In this document: positions 53,746-54,191 of the stretch, one piece after another | Layout of the letters: each line of letters opens with the position of its first letter | Numbering within the stretch: position 1 is the first letter of the stretch | Assembly (NCBI RefSeq): GCF_000337615.1 | Contig: NZ_AOII01000045.1 | Span: forward strand, 6,604 to 60,794 | Direction: 5' to 3' | Length of the DNA: 54,191 bases | From: Natrinema pallidum DSM 3751 | Lineage (GTDB): Archaea > Halobacteriota > Halobacteria > Halobacteriales > Natrialbaceae | Made by a program: the position numbers and the translations under genes | Notes under the pieces: model-generated | The model's input: only the letters and a program-made list of their open reading frames with translations | Databases searched by the model: none | What the model was told of the DNA's origin: nothing

Positions 53746-54005
53746 TTCGACGGGCCGCGCGTTCGTCTTCTCGGATCGACCCGCAGTCGGTATCGGTAAG
53801 CGACATCCCGGCCCGCACTGGCCACTCCGCACGCGGTGACCCGTGTGGATGCCGCCCCGCTCCCACCAGAGTCGGTCGGCCAACCCGACATGAGGGGACA
53901 GGGGTCGTCCTGTTCGATGGGACCGTTCGACGCCGGACCCGTCTCCGACGGGGATGGTTCCAGTCGGTCGCCACTAGATATAAGTCACTATAGGTAATAG
54001 CCCCT
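53746..54005. other. Intergenic region after aroC
   Basis: No gene with haloarchaeal protein character is seen here. The stretch ends in a TATA-like AGATATAAG (53976-53984), about 25-28 bases before the start of the structured sequence at 54006. Confidence 0.45.
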
Positions 54006-54147
54006 GGTGGAAGCTGTCGTCTCCAGAACAGTCGCGGGGGGCATGCGCTGAAATGCCCCGGGTGCTAAGGACACCCGAGACGTGGCTTCCAACCCGGTGA
54101 GGTCGAAGCCATGCTTGCGTATCCGCTCCCGAGACATAAACGTCTCG
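54006..54147 (+). ncRNA. Candidate structured RNA (non-coding RNA, riboswitch-like leader or transposon-end RNA)
   Basis: A TATA-like box about 25 bases upstream predicts a transcript starting near 54006. The sequence folds compactly. P1 pairs GGAAGC (54009-54014) with GCTTCC (54085-54090). P2 pairs CGTCTC (54018-54023) with GAGACG (54077-54082). Inside are hairpins 54038-54044/54053-54059 (GGGGCAT/ATGCCCC) and 54060-54064/54072-54076 (GGGTG/CACCC). The 3' strands of P1 and P2 can instead pair with 54105-54113 as a 9-pair hairpin. A last hairpin is 54130-54135/54142-54147 (CGAGAC/GTCTCG). It matches no tRNA, RNase P or SRP landmark I know. The sequence may continue past the right edge. Confidence 0.5.
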
Positions 54148-54191
54148 CCCGACAGTCCGTTCGCTCGAGACGAAGAGCGGTGCGTCCGAGG

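Follow-up and report, generated by a model that had tools for sequence, protein, structure and literature searches.

A likely new family of haloarchaeal 5' leaders in which two mutually exclusive helices covary beside the start codon

Bacterial translational riboswitches mask the ribosome-binding site or the start codon. One strand is shared between two pairings, with an upstream domain or with the initiation region, and a conserved junction is joined to a variable platform. As of 2021, the Thermococcus fluoride riboswitch was the only natural archaeal riboswitch determined experimentally (PMC8241225). Haloarchaea also carry structured 5' leaders thought to act on translation, among them the halobacterial ribosomal-protein leaders (for example S15-Halobacteria, RF03143). 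A separate body of work describes haloarchaeal C(P)XCG zinc-finger micro-proteins (PMC11241148, PMC6562870); a term search of the first of these papers found no RNA leader.

Here we analyse an element near the right end of a 54,191-nucleotide stretch of Natrinema pallidum DSM 3751 (the window). Like a translational riboswitch, it has a strand shared between an upstream domain and the initiation region, and a conserved junction with a variable platform. Unlike those riboswitches, it would mask the region directly before the AUG and not a Shine-Dalgarno sequence, it is found only in haloarchaea, it has no known ligand and it matches nothing in Rfam. It resembles the ribosomal-protein leaders as a structured haloarchaeal 5' leader, but the genes behind it, as listed from the downstream open reading frames (ORFs), are not ribosomal-protein genes, so that the defining criterion of that class is not met. 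(RF03143 itself matches a separate, neighbouring element at one relative's locus only, L035:1950-2015.) Its link to the micro-proteins is the gene coupled to most Natrialbaceae copies, whose product is very small and has two Cys-pair motifs. Rfam 15 (4227 families), applied at the gathering threshold and at a loose E-value, matched the element neither in the window nor in those relatives that were scanned, and gave no significant match anywhere in the last 4.2 kb of the window. The open-access literature that we searched, which leaves out subscription papers, contains no description of it. The RNA element is probably undescribed. Its many copies and its two exclusive folds, one of which would hide the start codon, give it the look of a family of genetic switches that has so far gone unrecognised.

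All features of the window copy lie on the forward strand. The TATA box of the putative leader promoter (TAGATATAAGT, 53975-53985), identified from its spacing across Natrialbaceae copies, precedes by about 30 nucleotides the helix P1, which begins at 54009. The 5' strand of P1, strand A or the anti-anti-start strand (54009-54023), was assigned by folding and by covariation with strand B; 54009-54014 (GGAAGC) and 54018-54023 (CGTCTC) pair with 54077-54082 (GAGACG) and 54084-54090 (GGCTTCC). Two hairpins follow strand A. H1 (54038-54059, GGGGCAU...UGAAA...AUGCCCC; arms 54038-54044/54053-54059) comes from folding and appears in most of the folds computed for relatives. H2 (54060-54076; arms 54060-54064/54072-54076), with an apex of the type GUG-YURGRR-CAC, is the best conserved part of the element and is supported by pairing and two-sided changes. 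Strand B (54077-54090), found by an unbiased helix scan and by covariation, is common to both folds, serving as the 3' strand of P1 and as the anti-start strand. Its segment 54084-54090, extended by 54077-54082, pairs either with A or, to the exclusion of A, with strand A' (GAAGCC, 54105-54110). A' rests on the helix scan, covariation and a permutation test, and it adjoins a conserved start codon at 54111-54113. The small ORF opened there (MLAYPLPRHKRLARQSVRSRRRAVRPR..., 54111-54191) runs off the window; it was assigned by reading the frame, which varies among copies of the window's sub-class. Within this ORF sits a last hairpin at about 54129-54147, whose loop and 3' arm are occupied by a downstream box (54136-54147, +26 to +37 from the AUG; WWRARNGUNYCG, here AUAAACGUCUCG), supported by information content and by covariation of the hairpin.

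How stable is this fold? Taken as a single sequence it is only moderately so: z = -2.6 against shuffled sequences, with 2 of 200 shuffles folding as well. The two states of the leader are nearly isoenergetic, at a predicted -46.7 kcal/mol for the P1 state and -42.9 kcal/mol for the state with A' sequestered, a gap of about 4 kcal/mol. Prediction favours the P1 state in 83% of distant copies and 66% of those in the family. Such predicted energies do not settle which state is the default, nor whether the other is ever populated at high salt. The decisive support is comparative: both alternative helices covary.

The homologues behind this comparison are numerous. BLAST finds 11 matching places in the window's own genome, one of them a partial duplicate at an assembly join, and matches in 46 of 100 relatives. 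(At such joins, seen at window position 54191/54192 and in L010, a single N separates two contigs and the same sequence is repeated on both sides; the repeat mimics a tandem partial copy, C44:1972-2063.) A covariance model built from 35 copies (R1, alignment A1) finds 13 copies in the genome and matches 81 of 117 family genomes. Several of these hold at least 26 copies each, a lower bound because only 26 were scored. Named carriers include Natrinema, Natrialba, Halovivax, Halostagnicola, Halopiger, Natronorubrum and Natribaculum and, outside the Natrialbaceae, Haloparvum sedimenti. The copies occupy ordinary intergenic sites beside aroC, suhB-like, sufS-like and similar genes. One such locus is kept between species, the aroC-RNA arrangement of the window recurring as orthologous copies in L021 and L022; near-identical copies occur within Halopiger djelfimassiliensis.

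R1 also matches other haloarchaeal families, weakly. With a wider model (R2, E <= 0.01), 145 of 242 Halobacteria genomes match, 52 inside the family and 93 outside it. In a phylum-wide sample all 14 matches fell in Halobacteria, and about 120 genomes from outside the class gave none. One genome of another family (G272) carries some 13-15 copies of a divergent form, GGGAAC...GTTCCC...GTAACCC-ATG (L216, L233, L293, L298, L299), which probably arose by independent amplification.

Do these homologues preserve both helices? Distant relatives differ in sequence and keep the same plan: A, H1, H2, B, a short linker, A' and the AUG. Where B has changed, both A and A' have changed with it. Thus B is GGTCTTTC with A' AAAAGACC-ATG in L228, GGCTTTC with GGAAAGCC-ATG in L225, and GGGTTCCC with GTAACCC-ATG in L233. 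When 22 diverse members were aligned (A2), the three top helices of the unbiased scan were P1, B:A' and H2. P1 plus H2 was 94.7% paired, with 19 cells showing two-sided change against 3.2 in shuffled alignments; B:A' plus H2 was 92.0% paired, with 18 such cells against 2.9. Sliding the partners by 1-3 columns lowered pairing to about 30-50%. The wide alignment (A3) holds 54 distinct sequences, nearly all from outside the Natrialbaceae. There P1 plus H2 remained 93.9% paired, with 91 two-sided cells against 21.5 shuffled and about 45% pairing in slid controls; H2 alone was paired in 98.7% of cells, with two-sided changes at 4 of its 6 pairs. B:A' was less completely paired than P1 in the wide alignment (77%), with 28 two-sided cells against 15.3 shuffled, R2 not having B:A' as a modelled pair. 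Across the set of A' strands, pairing with each copy's own B was stronger than in every permutation (0 of 2000). This last test was not corrected for relatedness, and kinship inflates such tests somewhat. That relatedness explains the whole of the covariation is unlikely, given the slid controls and the diversity of pair types.

These results bear on an earlier note on the window, made from its letters alone. It had described a TATA-like box, five helices and a strand with two exclusive partners, all of which are present. It had read them as a regulatory switch, either a leader or a new non-coding RNA, and this is supported: compensatory changes preserve the two exclusive helices among homologues, and the second of these helices adjoins a start codon. 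A lack of homologues with compensatory changes would, by its own account, have refuted it, and the opposite was found. It had also reported no tRNA T-loop, and ARAGORN finds no tRNA in the window. It missed the conserved start codon at 54111-54113 and the placing of the last hairpin inside its ORF.

A TATA-type box lies 30-33 nucleotides 5' of P1 in most of 99 Natrialbaceae copies and in many distant ones; among 91 control stretches only 5 contained TATA-type hexamers, at scattered positions. Given this spacing, transcription is expected to start a few nucleotides 5' of P1. ACGT-centred palindromes (for example CAATTGCTACGTAGCAATTG) occur between the TATA box and the RNA start in several copies outside the Natrialbaceae (L281, L286, L296, L269), and these could conceivably be operators of a repressor. 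On the Haloarcula plasmid pHsi540, the gene start annotated by PGAP (171135) coincides with the AUG predicted from the RNA match at 171049-171143. Downstream, 41 non-redundant distant members share a box, WWRARNGUAYCG, that spans +26 to +37 counted from the AUG; information content averages 0.52 bits over +22..+42 and 0.10 further on. They keep this box although the proteins encoded are largely unrelated. At an equal distance the Natrialbaceae have AUAAACGUCYCG, in the last hairpin, which itself covaries in that family. We rejected a pairing between the 5' arm of H2 and the GUAYCG of the box; the two are complementary in some copies, yet H2 varies and the box does not. We also rejected a protein-coding explanation of the whole element, because the frame is broken in L053 and L055 and the downstream box is conserved before unrelated proteins.

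What does the leader precede? In the Natrialbaceae the AUG opens a tiny ORF with a consensus of about M(I/L)xYILPGYKRPAR..., which spans 28-90 codons in most copies. Of 100 copies, 62 are followed by a gene for a small CPxCG...PCGC protein. Where the AUG is clear (57 copies), the stop of the tiny ORF lies within 11 nucleotides of the zinc-finger gene start in 52, and in 32 stop and start overlap exactly (ATGA/GTGA). Stop/start overlaps of the ATGA kind couple translation in archaea (PMC6728339). The overlap is a strong sign that the tiny ORF is genuine and that the switch controls the zinc-finger gene, and we consider both likely. The coupled protein meets the description of a C(P)XCG micro-protein, being very small with two Cys-pair motifs, its zinc binding being inferred; it matches no Pfam or NCBIfam family. 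In haloarchaeal families other than the Natrialbaceae, it is usually the gene proper that begins at the AUG. Some of these direct downstream ORFs encode SWIM zinc fingers, which match Pfam SWIM only below its cut-off (E 0.0024 and 0.05); others encode further small Cys-rich proteins, or proteins that belong to no known family. Of 45 such ORFs, 22 have two or more zinc-type Cys/His pairs, against 5.4% of 354 background proteins. Taken together, the downstream genes are diverse and most have no known function; the regulon therefore gives no clue to the ligand, if there is one.

Leaders of the same plan also stand before clustered small genes in the Halorubrum viruses Humcor1 and BJ1 and in a Deep Lake tailed virus. 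They fold as the same junction, with GACAGC before the AUG. These viral relatives have diverged, and it was their SWIM proteins that led to them; they score weakly with the covariance model (E 0.002-0.03), and their assignment rests on inspection and folding. An exact 19-mer search of IMG/VR viral contigs gave no matches. In BJ1 (L312), ORF7 is annotated from a GTG at 168, within the leader itself; the ATG that follows A' (about 219) suits the family better.

The window copy belongs to a sub-class, class A, with close copies elsewhere in its own genome, in Natrinema gari and in Halopiger djelfimassiliensis. Class A has neither the zinc-finger gene, whose start in class B relatives overlaps the stop of the small ORF, nor any shared downstream gene, and it carries a conserved T-run about 45 nucleotides past the last hairpin. 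Its ORF frame is not conserved; the start codon, A' and the downstream box are. Reading to the right of the window, across an assembly join marked by an N and about 0.6 kb past the RNA, reveals a gene with an eCIS_core domain (PF13699, E 3.9e-17; L009:3349-5037). Genes of this type follow some class A copies in Halopiger (L049, L050) and not others.

We propose, and regard as likely, that the window element belongs to a new family of structured 5' leaders in haloarchaea, in which strand exchange switches translation. The TATA promoter would start the RNA at P1. Pairing of A with B would close a three-way junction of P1, H1 and H2, leaving A' free and the start codon accessible. If the junction were unformed, or remodelled by a ligand or protein at H1/H2, B would pair with A' and mask the start codon. 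In most Natrialbaceae copies the switch would act on the zinc-finger micro-protein gene through termination-reinitiation from the tiny ORF. The homology, the covarying exclusive helices, the promoter spacing, the adjacency to the AUG and the ORF overlap are established here. In the absence of transcript or expression data, transcription of the RNA is inferred, and so is a fall in translation on masking; the bound state and its binding partner are likewise a matter of inference. The likely sites of recognition are the conserved H2 apex and the A-rich loop of H1.

Is this a riboswitch? Two criteria are met: a conserved structured domain supported by covariation, and a mutually exclusive expression-platform helix at the initiation region, where B:A' covaries beside the AUG and the translational effect is inferred. 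The element is riboswitch-like in its working. We do not claim membership, because ligand binding cannot be tested by sequence analysis. A metabolite riboswitch and a protein-bound leader are both possible on the evidence. A bolder reading would make the element a class-wide archaeal riboswitch, or other signal-responsive switch, of haloarchaea, their viruses and plasmids. It would sense an unknown common signal and gate zinc-finger proteins, and would have been amplified to tens of copies as a Natrialbaceae regulon. We offer this only tentatively, at rather less than an even chance.

The strongest rival is a protein-responsive autoregulatory leader, modelled by analogy on ribosomal-protein leaders, in which H1/H2 is bound by the small zinc-binding protein that the downstream gene encodes, or else by a single common RNA-binding protein, and the RNA thereby shifts to the start-masked state without any small-molecule ligand. 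The strong enrichment of zinc-finger proteins behind the leader speaks for it, and the H2 apex, a strongly conserved hairpin loop, would suit protein binding. Against it, the downstream proteins are of several unrelated kinds (SWIM, CPxCG and others without Cys pairs), which makes feedback by a common product hard to sustain; a common host protein remains possible. We think this rival plausible but, on balance, slightly improbable. Alternatively, at least class A, including the window copy, may be a stand-alone trans-acting small RNA, the leader role being derived or secondary. The lack of a shared downstream gene, the frame broken in some copies (L053, L055), the conserved T-run and copy numbers reaching at least 26 per genome keep this alive for class A. 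It is nonetheless unlikely, as class A conserves the start codon, A' and the downstream box, and elsewhere a gene is attached, at a constant position, to most copies.

Two further explanations fare worse. A transposon-end RNA or mobile repeat (IS200/IS605-type or MITE) would fit the many dispersed copies and the near-identical ones in Halopiger djelfimassiliensis. The earlier note had entertained the IS200/IS605 option, which is not supported: no transposase was recognised beside ten own-genome copies, as judged from predicted genes, not every neighbour having been profile-searched. Orthologous copies stay put across species at aroC-RNA, compensatory changes are not expected of a decaying repeat, and what is seen is a set of leaders driven by TATA boxes, at varied intergenic sites of chromosomes, on plasmids and in viruses. 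We consider a mobile origin very unlikely. Chance structure in GC-rich intergenic DNA draws support only from the modest single-sequence z of -2.6; the covariation, the phylogenetic depth and the absence of matches outside Halobacteria all but exclude it.

The proposed strand-exchange leader is a candidate found widely and in many copies, and its switch is explicit enough to test: the three short strands are open to mutation and compensation, in hosts whose genetics are well developed. The covariance models find hundreds of further copies. That the leader stands first in virus operons suggests that it takes part in controlling mobile elements. Through it one could also approach how the many haloarchaeal zinc-finger micro-proteins that are still uncharacterised are regulated.
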